This document shows positions 6,248 to 31,100 of a stretch of 64,000 bases of DNA, piece after piece (within the stretch, counting starts at the first letter, position 1; every line of letters starts with the position of its first letter). The notes under the pieces are model-generated. The model was given only the letters and a program-made list of their open reading frames with translations, was not told the DNA's origin and did not search any database. The stretch comes from Hysterium pulicare CBS 123377 (Eukaryota > Ascomycota > Dothideomycetes > Hysteriales > Hysteriaceae), in the NCBI GenBank assembly GCA_000467715.1, contig AJFK01000403.1:92398-156397 (forward strand), in the 5' to 3' direction. Both the position numbers and the translations under genes were made by a program.

Positions 6248-6346
6248 GAGTCGATTTTACAATTCATACTCCTTTTACATTCCTCGTCCTCACTTGGCCA
6301 TATGAACTTGTTCAGGGATTCATCATATCCATAATCTCCTCCTCTC

Positions 6347-7516
6347 TCACTCCTCCCAGGCCTGCCTAGTAACAGTCAATCTTCCCTCGTCAAACCCATC
6401 ACCTTCCATTCTCTTCAAACAAGCAAGCCTTCTAACCTCCTCACCCAACGCCGATAACACCACCACCCTGCCTGGCATATCTTTCAGTCCCTCGATTGCC
6501 CTAATCTCAATCTCGCACACCCTAAGTCCACGCAACCCCATCATCGACTCAAAAAGGAAATCCAGTGCCTTCGTCCCTTCCTGATTCTTCTCATCAAACC
6601 TTCCACACACCTCCACCCTCAAAAACTTCAGCCCTTGCATCCGTATAACGACGGTCCTCCACATCCGATCCCAATGCGTCGCCAAATCGCTCGATCGGAT
6701 ATCTAGATACCGCATCCCGCGCGTCCTATACACTTCACTCTTTTCAACCCATCTCAGCGTCAGCGATGTAATGGTTTCGAGACGTTGAGGCAAGATAGCC
6801 GATGCCCACCAGACGAAGCTCTTAGGGTGTGCGAAGTCGAATGTACGGGTCGAGTAGAGGAGCGGTATAGCTTCGATATAGATCTGTCGACATGTCTTCA
6901 GAAATGCGAGGTTGGCCGAGGAGAAACTGAAGGGGGTGTATGTGGGGAGTGTGCCGTCCTCATATCGAACAGGATCCGCGGGAGGAAAGAAGGGAGAACA
7001 GAAACGATGGGCTGGGGAGTGAGAGCAAAGGATATGACCCATTCTTGTATCATGTTCCTCTCTGCTTTTGGAGACGATGTGTACAGTGCCGTTGCTCCCT
7101 AGCGCTTCAACATATATCATCCGCCTTATCTCAGCCGGTAACCTGGCGAAAAAGGCGCACGTCTGTGGCATCATAGTGCTAGGTTTCTCCGTTGCTACGC
7201 ACTGCCAGCGATCCTCCCCAAGCGTTAAAAGTTCACGACGGTGGAGAGGCTGGCGTCGTGGAAATCGGCCTCTGTATGCGGCGACTGATTTGGTGATGTG
7301 CTCGTGGAAATCCTCGAATGTTTTAGATTCGTCGAGCCAGTCGAAGTCGCTGCCGATCCGACGGGTTCGCTTTCCTTCATCGTGCTGAATGTTTTGGAGC
7401 TCTTGAGAGACGGCAGTACAATGAGGGTGGGAGTCTGCCATTTGTGGGAAGAGTTGGGGTACTTGTGAGGTTGCCTGCGGAGATGAAGAAACTTGTGAAG
7501 AAGTAGGTGAAAACAA
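6347..7516 (-). CDS. F-box-like 2EXR/DUF7730-type protein
   Basis: Single-exon gene of 389 aa. Residues 122-140 contain FFARLPAEIRRMIYVEALG, the helix typical of the fungal F-box-like 2EXR/DUF7730 group. The usual second block, LAFLKTCRQIYIEAIPLLY then STRTFDF, lies about 85 residues later. The rest is a leucine-rich helical repeat-like C-terminus (LRWVEK, LKFLRVEV, LRGLRVCEIEI). Proteins of this kind are very numerous in Pezizomycotina and are thought to be substrate adaptors, but none close to this one has an assigned function that I can name. The first ATG gives a Ser/Gln-rich N-terminus; an internal ATG at residue 26 is an alternative start. Confidence 0.75.
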   Translation of the reverse strand: MFSPTSSQVSSSPQATSQVPQLFPQMADSHPHCTAVSQELQNIQHDEGKRTRRIGSDFDWLDESKTFEDFHEHITKSVAAYRGRFPRRQPLHRRELLTLGEDRWQCVATEKPSTMMPQTCAFFARLPAEIRRMIYVEALGSNGTVHIVSKSREEHDTRMGHILCSHSPAHRFCSPFFPPADPVRYEDGTLPTYTPFSFSSANLAFLKTCRQIYIEAIPLLYSTRTFDFAHPKSFVWWASAILPQRLETITSLTLRWVEKSEVYRTRGMRYLDIRSSDLATHWDRMWRTVVIRMQGLKFLRVEVCGRFDEKNQEGTKALDFLFESMMGLRGLRVCEIEIRAIEGLKDMPGRVVVLSALGEEVRRLACLKRMEGDGFDEGRLTVTRQAWEE

Positions 7517-8035
7517 ACTCCTAGATCACCAACGTTGAAATTCATTTTTGACAACTGCGACACGTGCGCGGTAGATCTCCCCCAATATATTCGTTTCTTT
7601 CCGTTATTATTTCGCATCCACTTTAGAATCCAGTCAAAGACCGGAAATTGACGCTCCAGGCACTGAGCTTAAACATACACATGACGCTGCGAATCCGGTT
7701 AGACTCTTAAAAGATGGAACAAATGATGGAATTACGTGCCATTAGAACGGCTCGTCGTTATGGCATGGTTTTTGGAGCGCGTCTTAGTATTCCTGGTGGT
7801 CGAGCATTCATCCCAGTATGGACGCATGGAAGTCGCCATGTGAGCCACGTGGGGAGTGGACACTGTGCAGCTGAAAAGATATGTGACGAGAGAACGGAAG
7901 ATTAGATTAGTGTAGTAATACCAACATCATAACCACCATTTCCGTTCCCGGGCCTCAGGTCTCACACGCTCTTGGGAGAATGAATTCAGTTTCAATTTCA
8001 ACCGTCCTCCTACCGCTCCTATGCCTTACTGCGTC
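7517..8035. other. Intergenic, no gene seen
   Basis: A short open frame at 7714-7905 has no family signature and no coding-like context. The stretch probably holds the promoter of the 2EXR gene and the 3' end of the PLAC8 gene. Confidence 0.5.
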
Positions 8036-8992: not shown

Positions 8993-11220
8993 TTTTGGTT
9001 CGGAGAGTATGGGATGGGGATAATGCGATGGTTGTAGATGGTATCAGTTGCTGTAGAATGATGAAAGGTCACGATTCGTATACTTTTCCTAAAGGTTGAA
9101 ACAGTTGAAGTACGGAACTTTCGAAAAAGGAGATGAAATTAAGGGAAACATCAGCTCCTACGCTAGAATGCTGCATCCTTCGTGCTTATGTATAATCTCA
9201 CCGATCCAATCTCGCGCCATGCTAATCCCTTCATCATCTCACGCCTGTCATTGTCAGGCCGAACCCGTCGACCAGGTTGAAAGCTTAGCTGGTTCAAGGC
9301 ATCGTGGCAGGGCTGAAAAAGCTTCGACATTTTTTAGGAGGTACGATTGGTTTGGTCGTTTACGCGTCGTTTACGCTCATTTTGGTTCGGGAAAAGTGCG
9401 CGGAGATTTTGCCGTTTCAGTGTGGGATTTGGGGGCCGTTCGGTCGGAGTTGATGCTTGTCCGTAGGAGTAGGAATTTTGGAGAGCATCATGCACGTTTT
9501 TGGATATGTTGGGTTTTAGAAGTAGAGAAGAAGATATGTAAGCTTTGGAATAAAGTGATAATGCCAAGGACCTTGAAGATATATGATGGAAAAGGACGTA
9601 GCAAAGACAAAGTTTAACTCACCGGCAAGTCATGCTTACTAATGGGCGCTAAATTGGTTTCGCCGACTCCGTTGACGTTCAACGTCCCGTCATCTCTTTA
9701 CATTCGGCAAAGAAAAAGTAGAGGCTCACCGGAGAATTCATTGGTCGTGGCACTTGGTGCCTCGTGTTATGGCCATACGGATAGCTACACGTGAACATCA
9801 GTAGTCTCACAGTATCGCAAAAGGAACCCGCAAGAGAGATCGAAGAAACACAGTTACGCGTGGTCAAGGTCATCAATCTTCTTCTCACGGCTCGCACAGG
9901 AGGCCGTGACTATAAGTGAACACGCTTGTCGGCCGGATCTGGTGCCTGTCTTGCTTCATTCATTCAACTATACCTCGCACCTTGCAACACTAACAAGCAC
10001 AGGTTCATCAATATTGCTGGACTCTCCTCGGTCGCGTCAAAACCTGGCTTGAGAAGCCTCGCGACTTCTGGGTATTGTTTCTGCTTCCCTTGTGCTCGCT
10101 ATGGGCTGGTGTCATCTTGCTCATTCTACGGAGGAAAAGACCAGCCAAGATCCCTCCCCAAGTGAGCATACTTCCAAAAGCAGCCAGAACCCTTGCCATT
10201 GCAGCTCGAAACGGCTTCAAATTGCAATCCGTGACGCCGGCATATCAACTAAAACATATGGGAAGGATGGTCTCCTTGGGGTGAGGGCTTCATGCTCGAA
10301 ATGAAGCGTGGTATCATTGCCTGTTGAGTTATGTTAGTTAAACGAAGCCGTGATTTCACCTGATGGAGATTGACTAACGGTATTACTAGTTCGTGTTTAA
10401 TCATGTTTTATCTTTGCTAAAACCAGATCCAGAATAGTCTCGTCTTGCAGCTGGCCAGATGAGGCTGCATTGAATGTTCAATGACAACATCCAGCTCTTG
10501 AAATCGGTCGGTTGAGCTCTCTTCGGTCCGATCATTTAGGGCTGACTTTATCCCTCCCTTCAGAAACAACGAGTCGCATTCTATCCCATCGCCGTTCAAG
10601 CCATCATGTAGCTTTCGGCTGCTTTAGGTAGTGGACATGGTATGGCTCTGTCTCCTGTTGCGAATCCGCACCTCGTCGTCATGTACACCTCGTTGGCAGC
10701 TACAGTAGGCCTCTAATCTGTATTCTTGAGCTATACCACTTAAATTAAGGTCATCGCGGTTTACCGAACGCATTTGAACTCCGGGAAGGAACGCAAATGG
10801 CTTTTCCGTCTCTGACATAGTCCTGTATAGTCCTGTTATATATAGTCCTGGTTTAAGATAGTAAGGAAGTTAGTTTACTATTAAATTCTATAATATCTAC
10901 TACTTCTCCTTCAAGAGCCGAGGTTTCCCCGACGAAGAGCGGTGAATGTTAGGTTTTCCTTTCACCTCTCATCCCTGATAACAGCAATTCACTCACATCT
11001 CACGGTGTTATCACACGTGATTATCGAGTATGAATAGGAACAATGTGATGAATAGGGACAATGGCTTATTCAGGCTATTGTATCGTCGAGTTTCTTCTAT
11101 ACATTTTCCTTCTTCACCAGTTCCTTCCCATCTCTTCCCTCGATATTTCCACCACCAAATTTCTTCCTCTTTATAATATCTCTCAATTCTGCTGGCCAGA
11201 TTCAAGAACGATCTATCATC
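8993..11220. other. 2.2-kb gene-poor interval with a possible decayed coding segment
   Basis: No complete gene is visible. A 173-codon frame at 9096-9617 has no ATG start and no family features. At about 10010-10284 (+) one frame encodes a hydrophobic anchor-like segment (FWVLFLLPLCSLWAGVILLI) followed by RRKRP and 50 ordinary residues, and it is preceded by a branch/acceptor-like sequence (CTAAC...CACAG). It could be a relic or the last exon of an unrecognised gene. At 10815-10855 the hexamer-like unit TAGTCCTG occurs three times. Confidence 0.4.
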
Positions 11221-12422
11221 ATGGAAAATCTAACCCCTAAAGAGATTCTCAATGAGAATGCAACGGAATACTACGTGTCCTGGCATCCGGATGCCGACAG
11301 CTTCATGGATATGGAGATCCCTCAGTGGATTGATAAAGGTTTGGTAGATCCGCAGCTCAAAGAGGACTGGAAGAAGAAGCAGAGAGCCAAGGATGAGGAA
11401 ACGCGCCGAGCTCAACGAGCTCTATATAACTTGGGTTTCGGGTACTATCAGTCTTGTATGTCACTCCACTGACAACCCTTCTAGCAACCTTCCACTGACC
11501 CGTATTAGATTATGTCCCTATTCCAACAGCTCCACATACTCCTCCAGTAGCTACTCTGGCAAACACACCTTCTCTACTCGGGACACCAGGCACTCAGCGC
11601 GTGCAGCCCATACATCCAGCGAGCGCTACGCCATTGTCGACCACCTCAGTCCCCCCTTTGAGCCAAAATGAACCTCCTGCTCCGGCAGAAATCCTTCAAA
11701 TGATCCAGTCCATGCAGAATCCGCCGCCAGGAAAGAGCAACAAAGAAGGTCTGCCCTTCAGAGCATGGCTCTTTGACGCCTTCCCAGGCCAGTACACGCG
11801 GAACAAGAAATGGCTGCACCCGAAATCCCCCCTACATCAATACTCTATTGCCCAGCTGGGCATATCGCAGGATTTCTGGGACTGGATTTCTGGGACCACC
11901 ATAGCACCGAATGCGGTCAAATCGAATCCTCGGAATCCGACACCCGCATCCTCTGAGCATGGAGCTGCGGCAGCGGAACCGTTTGTGCGAGAGGAGCCAG
12001 AGGTGGTTGAGCATGTGCGGTGTAATCAGGCTCTGCGTAATGGAGCGGCGCGGCACTGGGGCGTTTCGCGGAGATGCAACCATCACCCTACTCTATTCTT
12101 GGTCTGCCATGGATGCAGGGTAAGCCACGCCAAACATGCCTTGAGCCCACTGCTGAAAGCTGCTGCGAGACGAGGAGCGAGGGTATCTGTGTGCCGAAAA
12201 TGTGCTGCTAAGGCTGTAGCTAAGCATGGACACGGTCACCAGGGCTGCAGGTGCGATACTGCTTGGACTTGCTGCCAGTGTCGTACGGCTGAGCTTATTA
12301 GCCTGGTATTCGCTCGGGAAGGCCGTGGTGTTGACGCGTGTGGAGGTTGTGGAGTTAATATGTTGGGGAAAGGGACGAAGGTGATGTGTTGTATGCGTTG
12401 CAGGAGATTCACTACGCCTTGA
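11221..12422 (+). CDS. Unknown protein with C-terminal CxxC-rich domain
   Basis: Two exons (11221-11455, 11509-12422) with a 53-bp intron give 382 aa. I do not recognise the family. The N-terminus is charged and helical, the middle is Pro/Thr rich, and a block near residue 150 reads FRAWLFDAFPGQYTRNKKW. The last ~120 residues are dense in cysteine and histidine (RRCNHHPTLFLVCHGCR, VCRKCAAKA, CRCDTAWTCCQCRT, ACGGCGVNM, MCCMRCRRF), which suggests a multi-zinc fold resembling RING/LIM-like treble clefs but matching none by eye. It lacks a signal peptide, so an intracellular role is likely. It is the first of several lineage-specific genes on the plus strand leading into the Myb-like cluster. A pyrimidine-rich leader and the context ATCATCATGG support the start. 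Confidence 0.7.
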
Positions 12423-12833
12423 TCGCTTGACTGGAAGGCGTTGTTTTGGGGGTATAGCTTGGGCAATTCCGTGCGCAGCTGGACAGCTTGAGCTCTTCCT
12501 TACCTTAGTCGCTTGGTTCCTTCACCTTCTCATTTCCGGATTTTTCACTTTCTGGATGCCAACATGTGTCGCTTAGCACCTTCAATCGCACTAGTCTATG
12601 CTTGGTCGAAATTAGGCTTAGTCTCTACTTCTACCGTTCAAAACTGAAGCTACTCTTCCTCTGGATCAATCTATTTATGTATAGCATTCATCGACATCGC
12701 TACTTTCACAAAGCCCTGTACAATGTCACAGCTTCGCATACACCTGTGCCAAATCGCCTCGCCAAAGCGCTCATACTTAATACTTCCACTCATCTTCATG
12801 TTTACAACCATTCTGTCCACCCACCAAACCACC
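12423..12833. other. Intergenic spacer
   Basis: No gene is seen apart from the 5' extension of the next reading frame, where in-frame ATGs at 12723 and 12798 could lengthen the downstream protein. Confidence 0.45.
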
Positions 12834-13544
12834 ATGTTTTCCACACAGCCCCAACATGGCTCTCGAAGAACTCCCTCTCCACAAACTCCACCGGAGGAGG
12901 AGCCCATCAACGACACAGCATTTTTCAACCGCGCACCACCAACTTTCGTCCCACCTCTCAATCTGAACCACCTTGGCATTCTCGCCGAGCGGCCTGAATC
13001 ATACTTCATCCTCTGGGGCTTCGACCCCTCCTCCAGCAACCCCCTAGCTGCCTGGATCGACAAGAAGGACGTTGGTTGGTATCTTTGTCGAGAATGGCAC
13101 GATCACAACCACAGCTGGAAGCGGAGTCTCTTTCTTATGGGGATTCGGCAGCGAATCTATGATGAGCGTGAGAGGGGTAAACGGGCTACGGATGAGATGA
13201 TCGTTTCTATTGTGAGGCGGTGCTTTTTAGAGGAGAGGCAGGCAAACAATTTGACGCCGGAAGAAGAGCAACTCTTTGATGAATTTGTTGACTTCGATGC
13301 TCGGAATATCCTATACAAGCCACCGGGCGATGTGGTCGGAACTGATGATAACTTAGGTCTGGTGAATGGGAACGAGGACAGTGAGGCTGAGTCTTGGATC
13401 TCTCCGCCTCCGTCGCCCATGGATCTTGTGGATCCGGATCGAACTGATCCAGGTATTACTATCGTTACATCTTCGTCAGTAAGTTCGAGCTCGGGGCTTT
13501 CGGATCCGCCAGATGTGGTGGTTATGCCGGAGGGGTTAAGGTAG
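12834..13544 (+). CDS. Hypothetical protein, family unknown
   Basis: Uninterrupted frame giving 236 aa from the third in-frame ATG; the upstream ATGs at 12798 and 12723 would add 12 or 37 residues. I chose 12834 because the residues after it (MFSTQPQHGSRRTPSPQTPP) resemble the disordered starts of neighbouring genes. The centre (residues ~50-170) is globular: LGILAERPESYFILWGFDP, WYLCREWHDHNHSWKRSLF, and a charged helix LEERQANNLTPEEEQLFDEF. The C-terminus is acidic and Ser-rich. No domain is recognised. It lies between the CxxC-rich gene and the Myb-like cluster and has the same orientation. Confidence 0.55.
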   Translation: MFSTQPQHGSRRTPSPQTPPEEEPINDTAFFNRAPPTFVPPLNLNHLGILAERPESYFILWGFDPSSSNPLAAWIDKKDVGWYLCREWHDHNHSWKRSLFLMGIRQRIYDERERGKRATDEMIVSIVRRCFLEERQANNLTPEEEQLFDEFVDFDARNILYKPPGDVVGTDDNLGLVNGNEDSEAESWISPPPSPMDLVDPDRTDPGITIVTSSSVSSSSGLSDPPDVVVMPEGLR

Positions 13545-14416
13545 GGGTGCAGCTGTCTCGGGGAGGGGTAGGTGGTTGGAGGGTTGTATAGTCGAAGGAC
13601 TAAAATTCTGGCTACCCTAGAGTTCTAGGCAGTTGTAGGCAAATTCAAGAATGAGGAGATTAGTTTGTAGATTCAAAAAATGTAAAATGTATTGATGGGA
13701 CGTTATCCTCATTCGTCTGGTGGGTGGACATCCTGAGATTCCTCCTTGGCGTAAATTTCCGCACAACTGTAGTTTTGGTCACGTACAACCCCTTTAATTT
13801 ACTCACATACAGGATTAAAAGCTCTCTTGCGGTGTCTTCAAGACTATCTCGTTAATTGTCTAAACTCGCCCATTCTTTACGAGTTTAAGTTTGTTCGGTG
13901 CTCGCGTTCACGACGCGTGGTTGAGCTTTCTCAGTCGCTTCTTCATTGTGCATGGACATGTATCCGAAGTTCTAGCAAAGCAATACGATTCATGTGTTGG
14001 TAAAGGACTCGAAGTTTGATGAACATATTCAGGAATTCCCTTCACACTCTTTTTTCACGTCTGAAAATCCGAGATTCACGAAATAGCAACGAAGTTTGCG
14101 TGCGAATAAACGCAGTGAACCAAAACTATCCCGCCCGCGTATACACCATACGAAATGATGGCTGAGCTTCACACAAAACGTTTCTATGTTGAATGAATCA
14201 CCCCTTTGCTCCCATTTCTTATTGGAAGCACTCACTTCTCATTTCTCATGTGAATTCATATTTTCATTAAGGAATAGCTAGGGCCAGGCTATAAAGATAT
14301 AAAATGGGGTCCTCATCCCATACTGTTTACGGTATACCCACCACATTCAAGCACTCGAAAACAACTACTCAACCACCAATATCTTATTCAGCTCCAAGCA
14401 ACGAGAATCTTTCAAC
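13545..14416. other. Intergenic, promoter of the first Myb-like gene
   Basis: No coding sequence is supported. The right end carries a TATA-like element, listed separately. Confidence 0.5.
14290..14296 (+). promoter_or_regulatory. TATA-like element (TATAAAG)
   Basis: TATAAAG lies about 120 bp upstream of the start codon at 14417 and is followed by a second A/T-rich motif, ATATAAAA. The spacing is plausible for a fungal TATA box with a short leader. The call rests on motif and position only. Confidence 0.4.
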
Positions 14417-16195
14417 ATGCGGTATGTTGATATGACAAATTCGCCGAATGCTTCGCCTTTAACTACTCCTGCTTCGAGTCCGACAACCCCTGCTCCTCGC
14501 GGAGAACTTGGGACTCAGTCTAATCCAATCGATTTGGCTGTATCCCCATCATCTGCTACCTCAACACCGGTTTTCTCCGGGTATCGTGCCCCTGGATTCG
14601 GTACGCCGCTTGGAAGTTCCAACCACAATACTCCAGACGTAACCCATTCTGGTAGTACTCTGCAGGGTGACTCTTTTCGAGAGAACCCAATTCCTGTCCC
14701 TCCGCCCACGCCTTTCAATTCTCCGGCTCAGCAGGCGCACACCCCTCCATCGGTTGAACCCGTTATGCCTGAGATTTCACTTCCCGCTCGGACTACGCTC
14801 TTCCCAGATGGATTACAATTTGGTATTCCTCGTCGACGGGCTCAAAAGGATCCTCATCCTGGGCCTTGCTCTGTGGCGCCGACATCTGCGACCCCTAATA
14901 AGTCGACTACTGTTGAGACTACACTGTTCCCAGATGGCTTGCGATTCGGTGTTCCACGTCGACGGGTTCAAAATGATCCCCATCCTGGACCTTACTCCAG
15001 CCAATTTTCCAATGCTTTAACTCCTGGAAGCCAACCCCACACTCTAACTCCTTTGCAGCATGGGTCGCCTCAAGCTGCCGCTACTCCGGTTCGTCAAACC
15101 ACTGTTGTGCAAGATACTTCTCATACCCGCACTGTTTCGCAGCATCCCACAACGCAAGTCGGGACTATTCCAGGTTCTCAGGCAGGAGGCTTGCAAGATA
15201 ATTCCACTACCTCCACTCCGGTGGTACCTGCCAATGGAATCGTTGCTAGCACTATTCGTCATAGCAATACACCGAGATCTCCTTCAGCGGTGCCGGGGCC
15301 AACATATCCTATGGTACCCAATGAACCCATCAATCCCCTCACCCGTCCACTGTCAGCGGTTGAAGTTAGAAGCGCCCAGAATGTTCAGAACCCCAACACG
15401 CAAACTGGTTCTCCTCTCGTAAACATCGGCCGAGCCATAAATAGAGGTGGCTCATCTCACCATACTATCACGCTCCGAAACTTGAAACAGTTTCTAAAAC
15501 GCTTTGGTATCAACATGCCCGACAACAACTCCACGGACAAGGAACGTGATGAAGAACTGGAACGCGTCCGCCGCTTATCAGCCATCGAGTTCGCACTTGA
15601 TAATCGTGACCGATTTCCCAATATGTCTAAGAAAGACATCATTAGAAACATGGGTCTGACAACTAAAGATCCGGGTTCAGAGTATTCCGGAAAGAGTAAA
15701 AAAGAGCAACGAATGGAAGATGAGAAGGAGATCCAGAAGATCAAGGAAGCACTTGGAATAGAGAACGAAGTTGATTCTGACAGTGGAAGTGATGAGGACG
15801 AGGAAGAATCCGAATCCGAAGAAGAGGGCAACGAGGAAAACGAAGCCAATGAGGAAGATCAGCCTACTGCTCACGATGAAGAACCAGCCGAAGAAGACCC
15901 TGAAGATGAAACTGAAGAAGGGGAGCACTCCGAAGAAGAACCCGAAACCGCTCAAAATGGGGCATCTGTTCCTTCTCGAATAAATTCCAACCCACGGCAG
16001 CCATGGACACGAGCAGATGATGAAATCTTAACCAGAGCTCGATTGGAGGAGGGATTGAGTAATAGAGAGATAGTGGCAAGGTACTTTCCGACGAGATCAA
16101 CGGCTTCGGTGGCGGGCCATTGGTTCATTCTGAAGCAGTGGGGTGTAAGGAGTCGTGAGGATGTGATCCGGGCGAATCAAGATCGGCAACAGTGA
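14417..16195 (+). CDS. Myb/SANT-like protein with long disordered N-terminus
   Basis: Single-exon frame of 592 aa. The first ~330 residues are Pro/Thr/Ser rich and contain an internal duplication: TTLFPDGLQFGIPRRRAQKD (from residue 126) recurs 42 residues later as TTLFPDGLRFGVPRRRVQND. A charged helical block follows (LKQFLKRFGINMPDN; KDIIRNMGLTTKDPGSEYSG), then an E/D-rich stretch (~450-515). The protein ends with one Myb/SANT-like repeat, PWTRADDEILTRARLEEGLS followed by NREIVARYFPTRSTASVAGHW. The WT...L..AR..G...EI...YFP.R...AV pattern is shared with the next four genes. The role is probably DNA or chromatin binding in the nucleus; no target can be read from the sequence. Confidence 0.75.
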   Translation: MRYVDMTNSPNASPLTTPASSPTTPAPRGELGTQSNPIDLAVSPSSATSTPVFSGYRAPGFGTPLGSSNHNTPDVTHSGSTLQGDSFRENPIPVPPPTPFNSPAQQAHTPPSVEPVMPEISLPARTTLFPDGLQFGIPRRRAQKDPHPGPCSVAPTSATPNKSTTVETTLFPDGLRFGVPRRRVQNDPHPGPYSSQFSNALTPGSQPHTLTPLQHGSPQAAATPVRQTTVVQDTSHTRTVSQHPTTQVGTIPGSQAGGLQDNSTTSTPVVPANGIVASTIRHSNTPRSPSAVPGPTYPMVPNEPINPLTRPLSAVEVRSAQNVQNPNTQTGSPLVNIGRAINRGGSSHHTITLRNLKQFLKRFGINMPDNNSTDKERDEELERVRRLSAIEFALDNRDRFPNMSKKDIIRNMGLTTKDPGSEYSGKSKKEQRMEDEKEIQKIKEALGIENEVDSDSGSDEDEEESESEEEGNEENEANEEDQPTAHDEEPAEEDPEDETEEGEHSEEEPETAQNGASVPSRINSNPRQPWTRADDEILTRARLEEGLSNREIVARYFPTRSTASVAGHWFILKQWGVRSREDVIRANQDRQQ

Positions 16196-16635
16196 TGCAA
16201 GCTATCATAGGGGGTAAGGGGAGGCTGAGGTGATTGAAGTAGTCAAGAATGTTGGGAGAGCGATGTGATCATGGGGTTTTCTTTCAGAACTTTCGTGTAG
16301 GCATATGGTCTATTTCACGTTAGTTTCTAGTTCAAATGCTCAGCCTCATTCACACATGGCTCTCAAATCAATTATACGTGATATACTCTTCGTCACCGTC
16401 CCCATGAATCATATTTCCTCCTTCACATTTTTCTCCTATAGTGGTAACACAACCTTTCTCTGCACTGCAGTTATACTTCCTGAAAGACATGTATGGGCTA
16501 GCTGCTATAAGAAAACACTATTAACTTAAACAACATATAGGTATACGAAAGCTAGGAGAAGGATCTCTAAATAAATACACCCTAATTTCGAACGAGCCAG
16601 TCTTAACAGCGCAGGAAAGGCTACGGCAAATATAT
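16196..16635. other. Intergenic spacer in Myb-like cluster
   Basis: A/T-rich spacer with no supported gene. Confidence 0.5.
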
Positions 16636-17016
16636 ATGGCCAGGTTCTGGGCAGACCCGACTAACCACGACAAGAATACGGTTTGGTGCTGGGATGAGAA
16701 TCAGCGGCATCTTGTAGTCGTTGCATATACAGGGTCTCCAGATTACCAGTGGTCGGAGTTGGAAGAGAAGACTCTTCTAGAGGCTCGCAGAATGGCGTGG
16801 ACCTATGAGGATATTGCGGAACATTGCTTTTCAAATCATAGGACTGTGCACGCTTGTGCCACACACATGTACACCCTGAAAAGTCAAGACCTTTATGTCG
16901 AAAGTCCATATATCATGTCAGATCCTGTTCGGAGGCGAATAGCAGAAGGCCAGGATTATGATGGGATTGGGCGAGGAGATAACGAGAGTGAAAGCCAGGG
17001 AGCAGATATTTCTTAG
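16636..17016 (+). CDS. Small single-repeat Myb/SANT-like protein
   Basis: 126 aa, single exon. The N-terminus has a CWDENQRHLVVV motif that recurs in the gene at 17.9 kb (CWDEDQQTLVDV). One Myb-like repeat follows: WSELEEKTLLEARRMAWTYE, then DIAEHCFSNHRTVHACATHM. A short acidic tail (DNESESQGADIS) ends the protein. A single repeat with no other fold suggests a dimeric or accessory DNA-binding protein. It is clearly a paralogue of the gene at 17932-18372 and shares its strand. The start is the first ATG in frame. Transcription has not been shown, and such small genes can be missed or spurious, but the paralogy argues that it is real. Confidence 0.65.
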   Translation: MARFWADPTNHDKNTVWCWDENQRHLVVVAYTGSPDYQWSELEEKTLLEARRMAWTYEDIAEHCFSNHRTVHACATHMYTLKSQDLYVESPYIMSDPVRRRIAEGQDYDGIGRGDNESESQGADIS

Positions 17017-17931
17017 ATCAGCAAAACTTATGGAGATAGAGGATAAGTTCCGAACTTTGGTGTAAGGATGGGAATGAATAAACTTGTGCCCTCAAAGTTG
17101 CTACTTATCGAGTCAAATGTGACCCATTATTGTTTGAAGAGGAGTTACCTTCCGAGTCAAAGCCACAGCCACAGCCACAGCTTCATACCTAACAAAAAAT
17201 CACCAGCACGTGGCTCGCAGATCATCCGCACATGCCAACACTAGCCCCACTTTCACCTTTCACCCTCAAGTTCCTCTACTTCCTAATACAGTAGGTCTTT
17301 TGCAGAGTGTTGGATCCTGGACAAGACCTTTAAAATGTCGTCCAATCATTTTGCGAGCGCATTCTAGCCCTATCGTAGGGCATTCACCTCTCCACACCGG
17401 CACGCGGCCCGAACCACTAGCGCAGGCGGCTTAACAAATTCACCCTTCAATCATCTGGTGATGTGCATGTAAAAGTAGTTTGTTCGAATGTTGTGCTTCT
17501 CCTACTTCGGGAAACTACCATTCACCATGCCGGCCAATATGCTCTTTCCGTTTCAGCAGACCCACCTGCCGTCTCGTTGTAGCATTTCTTCAGTCACCCA
17601 CCAACATCATCCATCAACATCAAAAACATCGCTAAGTTCCGCAAATATCTTAGATGACCTTTGCTCAGGCGCGACTAGTCTACTCCTCTACCCATCCTGA
17701 ACCCAGCAGAACCGGCCACGCTCACAGCAGGACGGTAACATCAACTCCTGTGACCAGCAACTACCAATCTGCATTACAAGCATTCGTCGCTGGTCAAATT
17801 CTGTATCGGACTCCTTGCGTAATAAAGATCACACCACATTCCAGCGAGCATTCTCTTGGGCACAGTGGTATGCTTGCACTTTACTACACTTGCTTTTGGA
17901 CCGAAGTTGACGCTATGCAACAGATCTCATC
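17017..17931. other. Intergenic spacer in Myb-like cluster
   Basis: 915 bp with only short open frames and no family signature. At 17160-17182 the hexamer CCACAG/AGCCAC is repeated about four times (microsatellite-like). Confidence 0.5.
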
Positions 17932-18372
17932 ATGCCCTCTAAGAACCACGATCGAACCGCTTCACCACATCCACCAAAAACCGTTTTGTGTTGGGACGAG
18001 GATCAGCAAACGCTAGTCGATGTTCCCAATCCGTACACGGAGTTCACGAAAAGGAGTTATTGGACTAGCACACAGAAAAAAACCCTTGCAGAAGCAAGAA
18101 ACAGAAAGTGGCCTTACAAAAAGATTGTCGAGCTTTGCTTTCCTGGGTTCAGAACAGAGAACGCGGTTTATGTTCAATGGCGAAGGATCAAACCCTCTCA
18201 TTTAAGACGCACTACAACTTCTAAGGCAACAAAAGACACTGCTGAGATTGAGAGAAAGTGGGCTGAGCATGCCAAAAGGAAAGGATACGGTGCAAGTGAC
18301 GATGGTTCTGACTATGAGAGCGAAACTCTGGAGGAGATGTTTAAGTCACCTAGCGACGATGAAGAGACTTAA
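17932..18372 (+). CDS. Small single-repeat Myb/SANT-like protein, paralogue
   Basis: 146 aa, single exon. It shares with the preceding small gene the module TVLCWDEDQQTLVDV (there TVWCWDENQRHLVVV), followed by the Myb-like repeat YWTSTQKKTLAEARNRKWPY plus KKIVELCFPGFRTENAVYVQW. The C-terminus is longer, with a basic helix (ERKWAEHAKRKGYG) and an acidic end (SDYESETLEEMFKSPSDDEE). Lys/Arg-rich segments could serve as nuclear localisation signals. The two genes look like an old local duplication, since identity is limited to motif positions. Confidence 0.68.
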   Translation: MPSKNHDRTASPHPPKTVLCWDEDQQTLVDVPNPYTEFTKRSYWTSTQKKTLAEARNRKWPYKKIVELCFPGFRTENAVYVQWRRIKPSHLRRTTTSKATKDTAEIERKWAEHAKRKGYGASDDGSDYESETLEEMFKSPSDDEET

Positions 18373-18709
18373 GTTTTAAGCCGAGTATCAAGAGACGAGT
18401 GTTGTGGGGGTAATTGACCAAGAGTTAGGTCTTCTGAGGCATAGTATGGGTGGAAGTGTAATGCTAGCAGAGTCGAGCAATGAAGCGACGACGACATCCG
18501 TACAGGCTTCGCAATGCATTCTCCACGTGACACTATAGATGGCAGTCATTACCTCTCGATCGCTAGCCGCCTCACAGCTTATTAACCCACCGGCCATGAG
18601 TGAAAGAGAAAAAAGGGCTAAACCAGCTACAATAACATGACCACCAACTCCACATCCAACCACTGTACACTCAATCAATCTCCACCTAACCACTGCCTCA
18701 CTTTACAAG
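18373..18709. other. Intergenic spacer
   Basis: No gene seen; it holds the promoter of the three-repeat Myb-like gene. Confidence 0.45.
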
Positions 18710-19834
18710 ATGGACGGCGACCAGCACGTTAGTAATCGCAACGAAGTGCAACCTAGAAACGACTACTGGAAAACCGTCTTACCTAATGAGGAAGGTGAAC
18801 TTGATCCACACTCACACACAAGCGCTCAAACAGCTACTCACGAAACCCATGAGAGCATTACAGAAGCCGAACCAAACACTGCTACCGATTCATCCACAAA
18901 CTTAGTCATGCGAAAGCCAAGCCCACCTATAAGCAAGCCAGTCTCAGGAATGCCCAGTCCTAATGGCGCTGCTAAATATATTGTTCCTGATACAGATGTG
19001 GCTGCATCGCGCATGTGGAAAGGGATAGCTAGGGACTACAACACTTGGCGTGTCAAGCATTCACTCAAGGAAAAGTTGGCGGAGCTCAAAGTCTATGGAT
19101 GGCGTGATAAATTCAGCCCAAAGCCTTCCCGAGAAGAAAATGATGAGATCTCTTACCTTTTGGCTGCATTGGAAGCCCATCGAGCGAGCACTAAGACAAT
19201 CCTTCGTGCTCCAGAGCTTCCGCCAGGTTATTCGTTCGCTGCATCCAATGTTCCGGACGCACCCTATGCAGCCGCAACGAAGACGCACCTTGATGTTCCC
19301 GTAAATGGATTGACTACTGGTCATCCCAGACGCAAAGCAATAAAATGGACTTCGGAAGAAAGCCAGATTCTTGTCAACGCACGGAAATCGGGAATAGGAT
19401 ATGTGGAAATTCAGAACATTCACTTTCCCGCACGGACTGTTGGCGGTATCGCTAGACATTATTCAATAATCAACGGCAAATCAAAAGCACACCCTCCTGA
19501 AGGAGACTCATATGACATCGGAATAATACAGCCGCCTTCGAAATGGACTGAAAAGCAAAATGTCCTGCTTGTACAAGCTCGTCGTCGTGGTGATGACTTT
19601 GCAGACATTCAAGAAACGCTTTTCCCTTACAGAACCATGGAAGCTATTATCGCACAGTATGCGCGACTTACGGATAATGGTGAACCTAAATGGACGGACG
19701 AAGATTATATGGCTCTTGTGCGTGGCAGAATGGTCGGAATGCCATTTTCAAAGATCGTGCGGGAAGCTACTCCTACACGGAACGTGGACTCTGCGATGAA
19801 ACACTACTACGAAATGAGCCCTGAAGAGCGATAA
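18710..19834 (+). CDS. Three-repeat Myb/SANT-like protein, truncated by an in-frame TAA
   Basis: 374 aa before the stop. The N-terminal ~200 residues are disordered or helical (LKEKLAELKVYGWRDKFSPK). Three Myb-like repeats follow at about residues 211-255 (KWTSEESQILVNARKSGIGY), 277-320 (KWTEKQNVLLVQARRRGDDF) and 326-370 (KWTDEDYMALVRGRMVGMPF). The frame ends at TAA 19832-19834, but the same frame continues with sequence homologous to the end of the next repeat: ER-stop-RIEAM here matches GRKRIEEV after repeat four. The stop therefore looks like a recent nonsense mutation of a four-repeat protein (see the next entry). The three-repeat product may still be made. Role as for the rest of the cluster: probable nuclear DNA-binding protein. 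Confidence 0.7.
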   Translation: MDGDQHVSNRNEVQPRNDYWKTVLPNEEGELDPHSHTSAQTATHETHESITEAEPNTATDSSTNLVMRKPSPPISKPVSGMPSPNGAAKYIVPDTDVAASRMWKGIARDYNTWRVKHSLKEKLAELKVYGWRDKFSPKPSREENDEISYLLAALEAHRASTKTILRAPELPPGYSFAASNVPDAPYAAATKTHLDVPVNGLTTGHPRRKAIKWTSEESQILVNARKSGIGYVEIQNIHFPARTVGGIARHYSIINGKSKAHPPEGDSYDIGIIQPPSKWTEKQNVLLVQARRRGDDFADIQETLFPYRTMEAIIAQYARLTDNGEPKWTDEDYMALVRGRMVGMPFSKIVREATPTRNVDSAMKHYYEMSPEER

Positions 19835-20224
19835 CGCATCGAGGCGATGGTGGACCAGGAGAACCCAGCATTCCATGCGGGAGAACAATGTCAGGAAGAA
19901 GCGTCAAAGAGCCCGTCGATGGAGTAAGTTCTCAACGGACAACTGTTGAATCCCGTTCAGTTACCTAAAGCCTTGGCTCGAAAGAATCCTAGGTGGACCG
20001 AGGAAGAAAATGAGGCTCTTGTCCGAAGCAGAATGAACGGAATGGACTTCCAGGCAATCACAAGAACCTATTTTCCTGCCAGGAAGGTGGATGCGGTTAT
20101 GAAACATTGGTACCAGTTAGGTGCTGAAGGGCGGAAGCGGATTGAGGAAGTCTGGCAGCAGAATGACGGAACGGAAGAAGAGGTTGGTAAAGGTCGACCA
20201 CGCGTAAGCGGTGATTTTATTTAA
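19835..20224 (+). pseudogene. Detached fourth Myb-like repeat of the preceding gene
   Basis: This segment is in the same frame as the 18710-19834 gene and runs on past its TAA. It encodes ~30 residues of linker and then a fourth repeat (WTEEENEALVRSRMNGMDFQ, AITRTYFPARKVDAVMKHWY). A second in-frame TAA (19925-19927) lies inside a good intron candidate: donor GTAAGT at 19924 and acceptor CCTAG ending at 19992, 69 bp, which keeps frame and joins GAG to TGG of the repeat. Only the TAA at 19832 then separates this repeat from the first three. The repeat has no good ATG of its own. Confidence 0.65.
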
Positions 20225-20842
20225 AGCTCTCATTGTGGGGCATCATGGCAAGCAGTAATGAGGGCATATTGCAGGTTGCGGCCCTCTTCCTCTGATCCCC
20301 TCACTACGGACTCCATTGAGCGACTCATGTGCTGAGATTTCTAGAAAGTCATCATCATTTCCATTTCAAATTGCCTAAGTCTTTTACGGCACTTCAGCGG
20401 TATACTTCAAGTCACTCTTTTGATGTATTTCAGTTAGAGTTATGTATTATGCTTTCTGTTTTGAGAATTTGAAAATGTTGTGTAGTGCACAATGAAATGA
20501 TGCCCCTCGCCGTGATGTAGAACGCTTCCCTCAAATATGTTAATTTGCATTGTGAACGCATAGCTCGCCATATACCTATAATACTCGTTTAAGACCAAAT
20601 CCTTGAAAACTAGAGCCAATATCTTTCTTTATCGTGTTTAGTCTTATTTTGATAGTCCTGCTACCCACTGATATGAAATTGTTCTTGCATAACAGCAGGT
20701 GTAACAATATAAAAGATGAGAGCGATCATTCATGTCCATGATCCGTAAAATTTCGCATTCCTAATCTTTCTATCACGTACTATCATAGATTGACACATTA
20801 CTTACCAAAATCACATCGAACACATATTTCGGGACGATCAAC
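20225..20842. other. Intergenic spacer in Myb-like cluster
   Basis: A/T-rich, no gene seen. Confidence 0.5.
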
Positions 20843-22015
20843 ATGACGAAAACTAATCTAGGGACTCAACCTGGTGCTGAAGGTACCCCACCACCACGGA
20901 AGAACATGATATCCAAGCAGAAGCTACAGAGTCAATTTCAAGAATTTCTTCAAACCCGCCAGAGCCCAATACTTCAAGTTCAAACAAACTTTCTCGAAAC
21001 CGAAAATCTCAACCCGCCCTCGAAAATGTTACCTTTGAATGACCACAAGGTACAAGACCATTTGAAAACCATAGCTCCTGTTGCTGCTGGTACAAATATA
21101 CGCTCGAGAGCGCCTCCACCAATCAAAAAATCTAACTCAAAGCTCGCCAAGGTTTTTGGCGTTCGCAAGCTACCAAATGTTAAGCCATCCGCGCAAAAGG
21201 ATCGTAAGGGGCCCGTAATGGACTGTGGTAAGAGTGGTAAAGGGGACAAAGTGGATAAATTGAGTAAGGTTTCAAAGACATCCAACGTGCTTGGAGGTAA
21301 AGGTTCGAAGGGTTCGAAGGGTAAGGCTGGTGGACAGGATTTTTCTGGTAGCAATAAGATTCATAGTTTGCATAAAGTAAGTCTTACCCCATCTAATACT
21401 TCCACTTCAAATGGTTCTAAAAGCATCGATAGCACAGCTACCCACCAGAGCGGCCCTAGGGCCTGGCAAGCAGAAGATAACAAGTTCCTTGCTTACCTGC
21501 GAGAGAATTCAACTCTGGCCTATAAGGAGATTGCGGAGATCTATTTTCCCGGGGAATCGGTTGAAAAACTTCGACGCCGCTATTGGCGCGAAAAGGACCG
21601 TCGTAGAGTAAGCCGAGCTTTGGGGAACTTATCTTCAACCTCTCCCGCTCAGCAGCGAAGGAGGGATTGGTCGGATGAAGAGAAAGCCATCCTTAGAAAG
21701 GCTAAAGAGGTTGAAGGTTTGAGTTTTATGGAGATTCAACGTCGTTATTTTCCACATAGGCTGATAAATACCATGGAAGCATTCTACGCTTATTTGATGG
21801 AGCAGGATCGCGTAAACGACACGCTTGCTGCGAATTCTAACGCGGGCTCAATTATCGGAATCTCCAACGCTTGGTCTCAGGAGGATGAAAATATTCTACT
21901 CGACGCAAGAAAGCGGGGAATGACCTTCGTAAAAATCGCAAAAACGATGTTGCCTACAAGAACTGCTGGGGCAGTTAAAACGAAATTCTACGCTATGGAG
22001 AAACGGAATGATTAG
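20843..22015 (+). CDS. Three-repeat Myb/SANT-like protein with Lys/Gly-rich linker
   Basis: 390 aa, single exon. The N-terminal half is disordered, with a basic Lys/Gly/Ser region at residues ~120-170 (KGSKGSKGKAGG) that could bind nucleic acid non-specifically. Three Myb-like repeats follow at about 206-252 (AWQAEDNKFLAYLRENSTLA), 273-320 (DWSDEEKAILRKAKEVEGLS) and 341-388 (AWSQEDENILLDARKRGMTF). The third repeat runs to the C-terminus. The repeats are more divergent from each other than those of the 18.7-kb gene. It is the last gene of the cluster and lies on the same strand as the other four. Confidence 0.72.
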   Translation: MTKTNLGTQPGAEGTPPPRKNMISKQKLQSQFQEFLQTRQSPILQVQTNFLETENLNPPSKMLPLNDHKVQDHLKTIAPVAAGTNIRSRAPPPIKKSNSKLAKVFGVRKLPNVKPSAQKDRKGPVMDCGKSGKGDKVDKLSKVSKTSNVLGGKGSKGSKGKAGGQDFSGSNKIHSLHKVSLTPSNTSTSNGSKSIDSTATHQSGPRAWQAEDNKFLAYLRENSTLAYKEIAEIYFPGESVEKLRRRYWREKDRRRVSRALGNLSSTSPAQQRRRDWSDEEKAILRKAKEVEGLSFMEIQRRYFPHRLINTMEAFYAYLMEQDRVNDTLAANSNAGSIIGISNAWSQEDENILLDARKRGMTFVKIAKTMLPTRTAGAVKTKFYAMEKRND

Positions 22016-22865
22016 GGAGAAATGGTCCGATCCGCGCGATGCTTCCTAAATACACCTAGACTAAGTAAGCGGAATAACCAATCCATTAGTCATTCACTGC
22101 GAAGAGAAGTATATATCCTTACAGCTATAAGAGAACGAACCTATAGCATGCAAAGTTAGGTAAAAGAAGTTTGCAAGACTTGGTTTACTTTAAGACCAGT
22201 GGAGGCACCAAGCGACCATTACTCTATCTTAGAATGAATATCGTGTACGTTAAGCGTAGAAGATGAAGCTGAATCGCGATTGAGTGCTATTCCTCTGATC
22301 GCAATGTCAGTTGGAGGTCGCTGATCGGCCTTGATCTATTATGGTACTATATCAGCTAACATAAACATCTTCATTTCATTCCCCTTGATGTATTAGTAAT
22401 TAGATTCATATGTTTATTAGTCCGGTATATCTTCTGAAACAGTTGGTGTAGGTGTTTTGATTGAACGGTTCTGCGAACACGTATATTAATTGACTTCTCA
22501 AGCTTGTAGAGGTGTCTTGGATATATATATATATATATACATACATTCCTCCTATTGGTCCGTATAGACTAAATGGCGTTGTCTAGCCGACTCAGCCACT
22601 GCGCCACGGAAGTTGCATTCAAGGCTGATTCTGGGCGACTGATAGCATCATGGCTGGGTCTCAGCCTCGAACCTCAAAACACTGACGACCCCACTTCAAT
22701 CATCACCCACGCGATCCATGAGATCTCTCCGTGGCTTAAATCGTTGAATATTGTGTCTCCACAAAAAGCCTAACCACTGGCCTCGATCACACTGAACCAC
22801 TGCCGATGTGATCACACCTGGCCGAAGGCATCCGTGACAAGCCTACTTTTCAGCCTGATCGAAAG
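22016..22865. other. Intergenic with an (AT)n run
   Basis: A TA dinucleotide run lies at about 22520-22539. A 66-codon frame at 22573-22773 ends upstream of the HET gene; it starts with ATG but has no recognisable domain and is not called. Confidence 0.5.
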
Positions 22866-24122
22866 ATGAGATTACTCAAAACACGAAGCTTGAGGCTGAA
22901 AAACTTTTTCGACACGAGCGACCTGCCTGAGTATGCAATACTTTCGCACACTTGGGAGAATGAGGAGGTCACGTTTCAGGACATGGAGAGGTCGGGAGCC
23001 CGCTACAAGAAAGGATACAAGAAGGTGATCGAGTTTTGTGCGGAAGCAGATCGAGAAGGATATAATTGGGCTTGGATTGATACGTGCTGCATTGACAAGA
23101 CTGACCATAATGAGCTCTCCGAAGCAATCAACTCTAAGTTTGCATGGTACCGCGACTCTGGGATGTGCATTGTCTACTTATTCGACTTCGAATATGACCC
23201 TAGACTGGAGGACTGGGCTACGGATCTTGAGAGATCTAGATGGTTCAGACGGGGCTGGACACTTCAAGAACTGATTGCGCCGGGAGATGCAGTCTTTCAT
23301 GACCGCAATTGGCAAGATTTCGGCACTAAGAGAGGATTTGCCAACCTCATATGTGATATCACCGGGATTAATGCCGCACTTCTTCGAGGCGAAAGAAGAC
23401 TAGACCAGTTTAGCATCGCACAAAAGATGAGTTGGGCAGCATACCGGCAGACTACCAGGGTCGAAGATCGAGCATATTCCTTACTTGGCCTCTTTAACAT
23501 TCATTTCCCTCCAACATATGGAGAAGGGTGGAAGGCTTTTGGACGTCTGCAAGAAGAGCTTTTGAAAGTATCGACCGACCAATCCATATTCACCTGGACA
23601 CAAAACGGCCCGCCATTGCCTGCCAACCTTTACACGGATTCTAGCGTTCATCGAAAATGCAGCAAGCTTGCTCCGACGCCGGATTGCTTTTCTCGGTCTT
23701 CTCACATTATAACAGCTCCAAGCGCAAAGGACACTCACCCCCGGCTGGTTCCCCATACGACAGGGGTAGGCTTGGCAAGTCAGCTTCTGAATCGACCTAC
23801 TGTGATCACAAATGCTGGCCTCCAATTGACGCTCTTGGTCCGAGGTTTGGAAACTCGCGGGAGGAGGGTTCTCCTTGAAGCGATACTGAACTGCTACGAT
23901 GACCGCGACCTGACTAGAAACATCACGATATATCTAGTGGCAGATGGCCCTGGCTTGAAGGTCGCACTATTCAACCCGCCCCAACGAGACAACGTGCCCG
24001 CTTGGAGAGTAGAGCCCTACCACATCGGAGCTAAAGGGTTTACTTCCATGGGTTATATCGGAGACCATCTTGACCAGATTCGACGGTGGAGTTCTGTGGC
24101 ACTTGACTTGTATCCTGTGTGA
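22866..24122 (+). CDS. HET-domain protein, ends early at an in-frame TGA
   Basis: 418 aa with the full HET (heterokaryon incompatibility) domain in the first ~230 residues: LPEYAILSHTWENEEVTFQD, YNWAWIDTCCIDKTDHNELS, SGMCIVYLFD, SRWFRRGWTLQELIAPGDA, and later TTRVEDRAYSLLGLFNIHFP. HET proteins trigger cell death after fusion of unlike hyphae. The C-terminal ~190 residues are the variable part of this group. The TGA at 24120-24122 is followed in the same frame by 78 more codons that read as the usual C-terminal tail (next entry), so this copy may be a truncated allele. No 40-80-bp intron can remove the TGA while preserving frame. Confidence 0.8.
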   Translation: MRLLKTRSLRLKNFFDTSDLPEYAILSHTWENEEVTFQDMERSGARYKKGYKKVIEFCAEADREGYNWAWIDTCCIDKTDHNELSEAINSKFAWYRDSGMCIVYLFDFEYDPRLEDWATDLERSRWFRRGWTLQELIAPGDAVFHDRNWQDFGTKRGFANLICDITGINAALLRGERRLDQFSIAQKMSWAAYRQTTRVEDRAYSLLGLFNIHFPPTYGEGWKAFGRLQEELLKVSTDQSIFTWTQNGPPLPANLYTDSSVHRKCSKLAPTPDCFSRSSHIITAPSAKDTHPRLVPHTTGVGLASQLLNRPTVITNAGLQLTLLVRGLETRGRRVLLEAILNCYDDRDLTRNITIYLVADGPGLKVALFNPPQRDNVPAWRVEPYHIGAKGFTSMGYIGDHLDQIRRWSSVALDLYPV

Positions 24123-24359
24123 ACATTTGATTTTCCCATTAGTTCAGCTTGGATGGATGATCAGCATTGGTCTAAAGCGACTGGGCGCGAAATGAACTCA
24201 GCTCGAAAACGTATTGAAGAAGTGAAGGACTTCCGCAGGAGTGAACTAGCCAGAGAGCGAGAGAAGAGAACTGATCGGAAATATCAGATTTTCGGTGCTG
24301 TTGCGTTGGCCCTAGTTGCTGGTCTCGGGGTCAAAGAACGTGGGCTCGTCGGCCCCTGA
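24123..24359 (+). pseudogene. C-terminal tail of the HET gene beyond the premature stop
   Basis: In the same frame as the HET gene, this encodes a charged helix (KATGREMNSARKRIEEVKDF) and a hydrophobic segment (IFGAVALALVAGLGV) before TGA. Charged helix plus a short membrane segment is a usual ending for HET proteins, so it is read as the detached tail. A 24-26-bp intron across the stop would be needed to rejoin it, which is too short for this genome. Confidence 0.6.
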
Positions 24360-24931
24360 GCTACAAGGGTCCGAAGAATGTAATTCAAAATATTGAGTCT
24401 CGATACGTTCCACACTACCCATGAAAACAACCTAACGATAGTCGTTTCTGATTTGTTTATATTCAGTTGTTAATAAACCCCTTCAAGCTTACCCGTGCTG
24501 ACCTTTTAGTTCTACCCTGTTCGCTCCATAAAGTTCAGAGATAAACATATCAAAGTTCACCAGATTTTGAAGCACTATGAGCGGGTGTCTAGTAGTAACA
24601 ACCGAGGACATACCGTGAGCCACATTTGATCGAATTATGAAAGTCCTCGAAAAGAAAAAATTAAATAGTCTCATAGACTGTAGGACAAATAGCTGTCTTG
24701 ATAACGAAGCAAAGAGAGGCTGTAAGCCGTAGCAGTAAAGTAGGACATGTGCCAAAAGTAATAAGGGCCTCCGTTATAGTAAGACGAGCAACTTAATCGC
24801 TGAGCGGTTCTTTACTAAAGTATCCGAAGTTGAAGTTGAAGGAGCTTTACAGATGGGAGACGGTCGTTAATTTAGAAAGCAAATGCTTTCGGTGTTTATA
24901 CGCTGTCAAAGATCGTTCACCATGAGGCTCG
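24360..24931. other. Intergenic
   Basis: No gene seen. Confidence 0.45.
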
Positions 24932-29777: not shown

Positions 29778-31100
29778 TTACTCAAGCTCGCCCATGCCCT
29801 CAGCCGCATGACGGCAACGTCTCATCGTAGCCATCTCAATCGCCAAACCCGGCCCAAAACTTGCTGCTACAACATGATCACGGCCTTCTCCCATATTTCT
29901 TAGCCTATCGAGTACAATGAGTACCGTCGGACTAGAAGAGTTGCCACGAGACTGGTAGATTTCCAACGATGCTCGTAAGTGATCTTTGTTAATATTTAAG
30001 ACATCCTGCGCCCCTTCCAAAATAGCAATTCCGCCAGGATGAAGTGCCCAGTCGCAGTCTTTTGCTTTCAAATCCATGAAAATTCCCTGATCATCTTCGT
30101 AGGTCAAGGACTGGCGTAGTCGGTCGAACATGGGCTTAATCGCCCCCACTGCATTCTCCGGGACCTCTTTAGTAAGAGTGATTTTGAAACCTAGAAAAAT
30201 ATTAACAACAAGTCCGTAGATCATTGTACTGCAATAAGGTTGCAGAAACATGCCTTTAGGGTCTGCCATGAATGCCATGTATGGATAGGTACCAGGTAAG
30301 ACCATATTACCCCAGTCGAGCAGCTCAAGAATAGGCAGGGTTCCGTTATCGAGCCCAAGTTCGTTGCAAACTACCAACGCTGCCGCAGCATCTGAGAACA
30401 ATGCAGGCGCGATTCGTAGCTCTTCGCTATTCTCGCAGGCGTAATGAAGCTCGCACCGGGTGTGAAGACTGCATAGTTCACACGCAAACACAAGGATCCT
30501 CGCCGGCCGTCGCCGCTGCGAGGCTCCTGCTGCGAGGCCTGCTGCCAAACGCAAAGCCGAAAGTCCGCCAGCGCAACCAACGCCGTGCAACAGCGAGCGT
30601 TCAACATCATGACGAAGCTTAAGCTTCTGAGACACGAGTAGGTCGTAGCCAGGATTGCCCGCGTCGGTACATGTTACGGCCACAGTGTGCGTAATTTCAG
30701 ACGCGGCAAGTTTCGCCTCCAGAAGTGCTTTCTCGCAAGCAGCCACAGTAAGATCCACGCCAGCTTTTCGGAAGAGAAGAGAGAGCTCATCGATGGTAGG
30801 GGGAAGGGAGCATTGGTTGGTGAGATCTGTATAGTTGGAAACGGTTGCGCGGGTATGAATGCCGGAGCTACGGTTGACCGCGAGAAGCTTCTGGATGCTA
30901 GACCACATCAACGACAGATTCTAGCATTAGTTAAGTAGTAAAGCAGACGCTTACCCCAAAGAATCGATGTGCTCCGAACATATCCTCCCAAGCACCTCTT
31001 CAAAATCCATCTGAGTAAAGATATTGGAAGGGTATTGCCCTGCTAAGCCTGTGATAAAGATAGCGGGCCTGTCGCCGGCTTTGTCATTTATTCCCACCAT
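29778..31100 (-). CDS. Type III polyketide synthase (chalcone-synthase-like)
   Basis: Two exons (31100-30955, 30897-29778) with a 57-bp intron give 421 aa, the usual size. The N-terminus reads IFITGLAGQYPSNIF, and the junction rebuilds HIDSLGIQKLLAVNRSSGIH. The catalytic triad is present: Cys157 in HGVGCAGGLSALR, His335 in WALHPGGIAIL and Asn368 in YQSRGNSSSPTV. The FGPGLAIEM motif near the C-terminus matches the family's GFGPG-type loop. The enzyme condenses a starter acyl-CoA with malonyl-CoA units to pyrones or resorcinols in the cytosol. Starter length cannot be read from the sequence. An acceptor 23 bp upstream of the chosen one would break the frame. No P450 or oxidoreductase partner is visible beside it. 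Confidence 0.9.

Follow-up and report, generated by a model that had tools for sequence, protein, structure and literature searches.

Five clustered genes carry ten copies of one repeat

The DNA analyzed here (the window) is a 64,000-nucleotide stretch of the genome of the ascomycete Hysterium pulicare CBS 123377 (GenBank assembly GCA_000467715.1), corresponding to positions 92398 to 156397 of contig AJFK01000403.1, denoted C309. Five plus-strand frames at positions 14417 to 22015 of the window together contain ten copies of a single repeat type of 45 to 46 residues (Table 1). An earlier reading of the sequence alone (the sequence-only reading) had described five plus-strand Myb/SANT-like genes in 7.6 kb, and its coordinates proved exact, from the ATG of gene 1 at 14417 to the stop codon of gene 5 at 22015; the copy numbers that it gave for the successive genes (1, 1, 1, 3+1, and 3, ten repeats in all) were confirmed by alignment and by a check of the reading frames. 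Repeats start at residues 212, 278, and 327 of gene 4 (and at 428 if the frame is read past its stops) and at residues 207, 275, and 343 of gene 5. The spacings between starts range from 49 to 101 residues, and one of the five (49) is near the ~52 residues of c-Myb-type R2R3 or 3R proteins.

In the alignment of the repeats, W, L, and I never vary among the ten copies, and R, P, and R are present in at least nine. The pattern proposed from the sequence, which begins W[TS]xEExxxLxxAR, is recognizable in the repeats and is slightly too strict: repeat 1 of gene 5 has Glu in place of the helix-3 Arg, and the repeat of gene 2 has Met in place of the last aromatic residue. In a leave-one-gene-out test, a profile was built for each gene from the repeats of the remaining genes, and each of the five proteins was shuffled 2000 times. 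All ten repeats were recovered at 17.4 to 46.2 bits, compared to 4.7 to 6.9 bits for the best shuffles, and they thus exceed chance; the repeats were chosen and aligned jointly before profiling, so that their boundaries are not independent, yet the scores are far above those of the shuffles. When the ten-repeat profile was compared to 6,961 stop-to-stop frames of at least 30 amino acids from the window and further loci of the genome, no eleventh copy was listed in the window at E up to 1, and the best matches outside the cluster were on contigs C411 (33.7 bits) and C31 (18.7 bits).

Table 1. Features of the Myb-like cluster and selected neighbors, in window coordinates (bits: leave-one-gene-out profile score)
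Feature	Position	Strand	Remarks
Gene 1, 592 aa	14417-16195	+	Long low-complexity, acidic region; one C-terminal Myb-like repeat; PF00249 E 0.0027, under cut-off
Direct repeat in gene 1, 81 nt, two copies	14791-14871, 14917-14997	+	84% identity
Repeat g1r1	16001-16138	+	33.7 bits
Gene 2, 126 aa	16636-17016	+	19-residue motif in common with gene 3, then one repeat
Repeat g2r1	16747-16884	+	32.7 bits
Gene 3, 146 aa	17932-18372	+	Gene 2 paralogue; predicted beta-hairpin, three-helix bundle, long helix
Repeat g3r1	18058-18195	+	39.7 bits; predicted local distance difference test (pLDDT) blocks 92-94 over residues 51-80
Gene 4, 374 aa	18710-19834	+	Fused domain, then three repeats; ended by in-frame TAA
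Gene 4 domain in common with C353 frame	19010-19231	+	Genome search
Repeat g4r1	19343-19477	+	42.5 bits
Repeat g4r2	19541-19675	+	33.8 bits
Repeat g4r3	19688-19822	+	22.3 bits
Stretch between two in-frame TAA codons, parting repeat 4 from gene 4	19832-19927	+	TAA at 19832-19834 and 19925-19927
Repeat g4r4	19991-20125	+	37.0 bits; open frame 19928-20224
Gene 5, 390 aa	20843-22015	+	Basic N-terminal region, three repeats; PF13921 E 2.2e-6 and PF00249 E 6e-6, both over cut-off
Repeat g5r1	21461-21598	+	17.4 bits; most divergent
Repeat g5r2	21665-21802	+	27.0 bits
Repeat g5r3	21869-22003	+	46.2 bits
2EXR-type frame, also DUF7730	6350-7525	-	Pfam
Type III polyketide synthase	29781-30920	-	Chalcone/stilbene synthase domains, E 2.7e-17 and 3.1e-17
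Open frame, 701 codons	33527-35629	+	No Pfam match at E up to 1
Second 2EXR-type frame	36465-37424	+	Under Pfam cut-off

Outside the repeats, the genes differ. Genes 2 and 3 are paralogues, with 36% identity over 109 aligned residues and 58% identity over the N-terminal 19-residue motif (none of 500 shuffles was as high in either case). C-terminal to the repeat, the two proteins show no clear similarity, with 16 of 500 shuffles reaching the same level. Gene 1 contains an internal duplication of 81 nt.

The repeats have a Myb/SANT fold

The ten-repeat profile matches c-Myb repeat 3 with an E value of 1.2e-6, in agreement with Pfam and with the predicted bundles. The sequence-only reading had proposed this relation and had named its absence in a profile search against Pfam Myb families as a result that would count against it; the search found the relation. 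The Pfam cut-off is passed by gene 5 alone: gene 4 matches PF00249 at E 5e-5 (23.8 of the 24.4 bits needed), its repeat 4 at E 0.01, and the scanned proteins of genes 2 and 3 gave no Pfam Myb match. When single repeats were scanned alone, six of ten matched PF00249 at E up to 1. The predicted models contain three-helix bundles with a helix-turn-helix, and in the gene 3 model the bundle is accompanied by the 19-residue motif as a beta-hairpin. Single repeats also weakly match the transposase-type helix-turn-helix families Terminase_5 (E 0.014) and HTH_SB (E 0.035), and Tc3/Mos1 and terminase chains are among the structural fold matches; this assignment was set aside because the ten-repeat profile matches Myb. 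The repeat fold is Myb/SANT, and both fold and homology are supported by computation.

Like c-Myb repeat 3 and the PF00249/PF13921 families, the cluster repeats are three-helix units with an invariant first Trp (ten of ten) and mostly aromatic residues at the second and third core places, where classical Myb has regularly spaced Trp residues. They differ from c-Myb repeat 3 in their spacing, in the lack of its Lys-Asn pair (see below), and in having Tyr or Phe for the second Trp in nine of ten copies (Asn in gene 1); the third place holds Trp, Tyr, or Phe in nine of ten (Met in gene 2). The best outside match, a single-repeat Myb-like frame of 164 aa on C411 in the same genome, shares the layout W-S-x-x-D-x-x-x-L-x-x-A-R-x-x-G, but it exceeds the Pfam cut-offs, falls outside the cluster group in the repeat tree, and has Arg-Lys at the contact places. 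In the search run back from the C411 frame, C31 came first (E 5.8e-5), and the cluster scored far lower, with E values of 0.055 to 0.125. At its own locus (L065, frames at 4718-5212 and 5708-7068), the Myb-like frame adjoins frames that by eye resemble a putative sirtuin deacetylase.

The cluster likely arose by old local duplications

Across the host genome (37.2 Mb in 596 contigs), the one fungal genome covered by the searches, Pfam Myb matches over the cut-off were found on at least 18 other contigs; the same searches show only genes 1 and 5 of the cluster, both under the cut-off, so that the numbers for the cluster and for the rest of the genome are not directly comparable. Taken together, 23 Myb genes (18 plus 5) in 37.2 Mb correspond to 0.005 expected per 7.6 kb compared to the five seen, an excess that chance does not explain even when one takes into account that the site was chosen by eye. 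In a repeat tree of 27 domains and 46 columns, nine of the ten cluster repeats lie on one side of a branch (support 88/86, branch not starred). The tenth, repeat 1 of gene 5, forms a long branch placed among the other domains, and a single clade of all ten is not rejected by the approximately unbiased (AU) test (p-AU 0.252). The local gene duplication postulated in the sequence-only reading is therefore supported, and the cluster likely arose in this way. Within the cluster group, the repeats of genes 2 and 3 pair (89/72), as do repeats 3 and 4 of gene 4 (92/86).

The internal repeat gain postulated alongside it held in part. The only clear case is the pair g4r3 and g4r4, which are 51% identical. 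In the best tree, neither gene 4 nor gene 5 has its repeats grouped together, though gene-by-gene grouping is not rejected (p-AU 0.415 for gene 4 and 0.171 for gene 5). With the exception of that pair, repeat identities are 16 to 34%, and third codon positions are 28 to 49% identical in the pairs measured. On these low identities, the duplications are old and diverged. A recent duplication is ruled out by the repeat identities together with the lack of any direct repeat of at least 20 nt joining the genes. A comparison of the gene 4 protein with viral and prokaryotic contig collections gave six and nine pattern matches, respectively, none of them confirmed, and absence there says little.

Gene 4 combines a shared domain with a repeat behind in-frame stops

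A genome search with gene 4 gave a single further location for residues 89 to 186, within a frame of 1002 aa on contig C353 (57% identity, E 1.0e-28). The reverse search from the C353 domain gave 68% identity over 74 residues, with two matches in all (C353 itself and gene 4), and the copy at C353:20679-20963 is the only other one found in the host genome. No Pfam family matched the fused domain in gene 4, none was found at E up to 1 in 913 scanned residues of the C353 frame, and a search of the fused domain against solved structures returned no match at E up to 1. By these reciprocal matches, gene 4 is a fusion that has a domain of ~75 to 98 residues (57 to 68% identity) in common with the C353 protein, and the fusion is supported by computation.

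The description of gene 4 as formerly having four repeats is essentially correct: repeat 4 continues the frame of repeats 1 to 3, behind two TAA codons and with no frameshift. Its open frame has no ATG ahead of the repeat core (the first Met is at 20033). The stretch between the stops (30 codons) and the 86 codons that begin at 19964 are open (probability 0.003 for 116 random codons of the same composition); this, together with the 37.0 bits that repeat 4 has kept, suggests that it was coding until fairly recently. The stops may be sequencing errors, though there are two of them. Splicing of repeat 4 through the intron-like stretch GTAAGT...CAG at 19924-19960 was rejected: removal of its 37 nt breaks the frame, and repeat 4 is already in frame.

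Genomic surroundings

The window contains fungal-type genes. A Pfam scan covered 30 of its 90 listed frames, five of the 90 being the cluster's own. Matches over the cut-off comprised a Cnn_1N protein, PF07093 SGT1, DUF7730/2EXR, HET, a type III polyketide synthase, GPI1, Fungal_trans_2, and DUF3632; PLAC8, F-box, a second 2EXR, and an FG-nucleoporin match were under it. Ordinary genes (the Cnn_1N protein, PF07093 SGT1, and GPI1) are also present. The sequence-only reading had placed the cluster in an accessory region beside HET and decayed genes; no sign of such a region was noticed, though no test aimed at it was made, and of decayed genes the check covered the two stops in gene 4. A search with bacterial settings detected no tRNA. 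The base composition of the cluster is inside the range of the window, and its dinucleotide indices (TpA/ApT 0.73, (CpA+TpG)/(ApC+GpT) 1.23; window 0.73 and 1.21) carry no signature of repeat-induced point mutation (RIP), so that RIP damage was rejected. Matches to DUF3435, the Starship-type recombinase, occur elsewhere in the genome (seven on C347, C530, C471, and C529, each covering part of the profile).

Candidate DNA contacts and interpretation

In three comparisons, identity was highest at second and lowest at third codon positions, a pattern indicating that the proteins were under selection at some time since duplication. c-Myb uses a Lys-Asn pair for base contact. The same pair is implicated in base contact in MYT3 of Fusarium graminearum, according to its report (PMC3983115). 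In the cluster it occurs in none of the ten repeats, compared to two of 11 other Myb domains of the host genome used as controls (C131r2 and C590r2), which weakens the case for DNA binding. A basic residue is present at one or both contact places in five repeats and at neither in the other five, and it is proposed that only some repeats touch DNA. With that restriction, DNA binding by the repeats is plausible.

The interpretation considered most likely (probability roughly 0.6) is an old tandem array of Myb/SANT-fold genes whose products are nuclear DNA- or chromatin-binding regulators; the DNA binding, the nuclear location, and the regulatory role are what we infer. The array would have grown through duplication of genes in place, gain of repeats, and a single domain fusion, and its proteins would act in the nucleus as DNA-touching regulators. 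Repeats with a basic helix-3 contact residue (gene 4 repeats 1, 3, and 4; gene 5 repeats 1 and 3) would sit on DNA, perhaps joined by gene 3, which has a net charge of +8. The neutral or acidic repeats (repeat 2 of gene 4 and repeat 2 of gene 5) may be spacers or protein-contact modules, and genes 2 and 3 may encode small proteins with one repeat each, which would have sites or partners in common or compete for them.

An alternative that is possible, though decidedly less probable, is that the Myb/SANT fold has been kept but the repeats serve mainly as protein-binding (SANT-like) or dimerizing modules in a chromatin complex. Several observations favor it: the missing Lys-Asn pair, the five repeats with no basic residue at either contact place, the charge of zero or below over the last 17 residues (helix 3) in three of ten repeats, the presence of MTA1, CoREST, RSC, and BAF chains among the structural matches to the repeat models, and the extra motif of genes 2 and 3 with its hairpin in the gene 3 model. 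However, whole-repeat charge ranges from -2 to +8, compared to -8 and -9 for two acidic domains on C331 and C429, which are presumably of the SANT type, and the ten-repeat profile matches Myb repeat 3 first.

It is improbable that the cluster is a decaying relic, i.e., old duplicates without present function. Such decay would account for the loss of repeat 4 from gene 4 through two in-frame stops and for the coding score of gene 1, which is 0.07 in frame compared to 0.08 in one reverse frame. All five frames are otherwise open, however, and when eight other frames of the window supply the codon-usage reference, four of the five genes score highest in their own frame; the codon-position patterns reflect past selection on protein, and no RIP signature is seen. 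It is very unlikely that the cluster travels as cargo in a Starship or another mobile element: accessory genes of obscure role beside HET-type genes occur in such elements, but no DUF3435 recombinase match was found on C309 (the contig stops at the right edge of the window, and an element could extend beyond it), and the sole reported repeat pair of at least 20 nt in 10500-24500 is the one inside gene 1.

Significance of the cluster

According to the MYT3 report (PMC3983115), most Myb proteins of F. graminearum contain a single Myb-like domain or a pair, and 19 Myb-like proteins are cited for the genome. MYT3, as described there, likewise has divergent Myb-like domains, but it is a protein of 2,304 aa with Lys-Asn in its second domain, whereas in H. 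pulicare five smaller genes occupy 7.6 kb and carry no more than three repeats apiece, apart from the one cut off by stops. A thin literature search found no filamentous fungus described as having Myb-like genes in tandem array. The genes look like duplicates within a familiar class of proteins that diverged from one another long ago, and the array is thus a modest, mostly ordinary finding. New here are the fusion in gene 4, the 19-residue motif of genes 2 and 3, the in-frame repeat 4 behind stops, and the 81-nt duplication in gene 1. A bolder proposal, and a doubtful one, is that the cluster forms a module of combinatorial DNA readers restricted to one lineage, in which repeat number and third helices diversify through duplication at one locus and one member has come, through fusion, to share a new domain with a second, unrelated gene, making it a fungal counterpart of clustered diversifying DNA-binding families.

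If the cluster is lineage-restricted and expressed, it would provide a small, contained case for tracing the effect on regulatory output of changes in repeat number, in helix-3 residues, and in a fused domain. If it is widely conserved, it would represent an unnamed branch of the Myb-like superfamily that is under-detected by Pfam models, to which two of its five genes are unseen.
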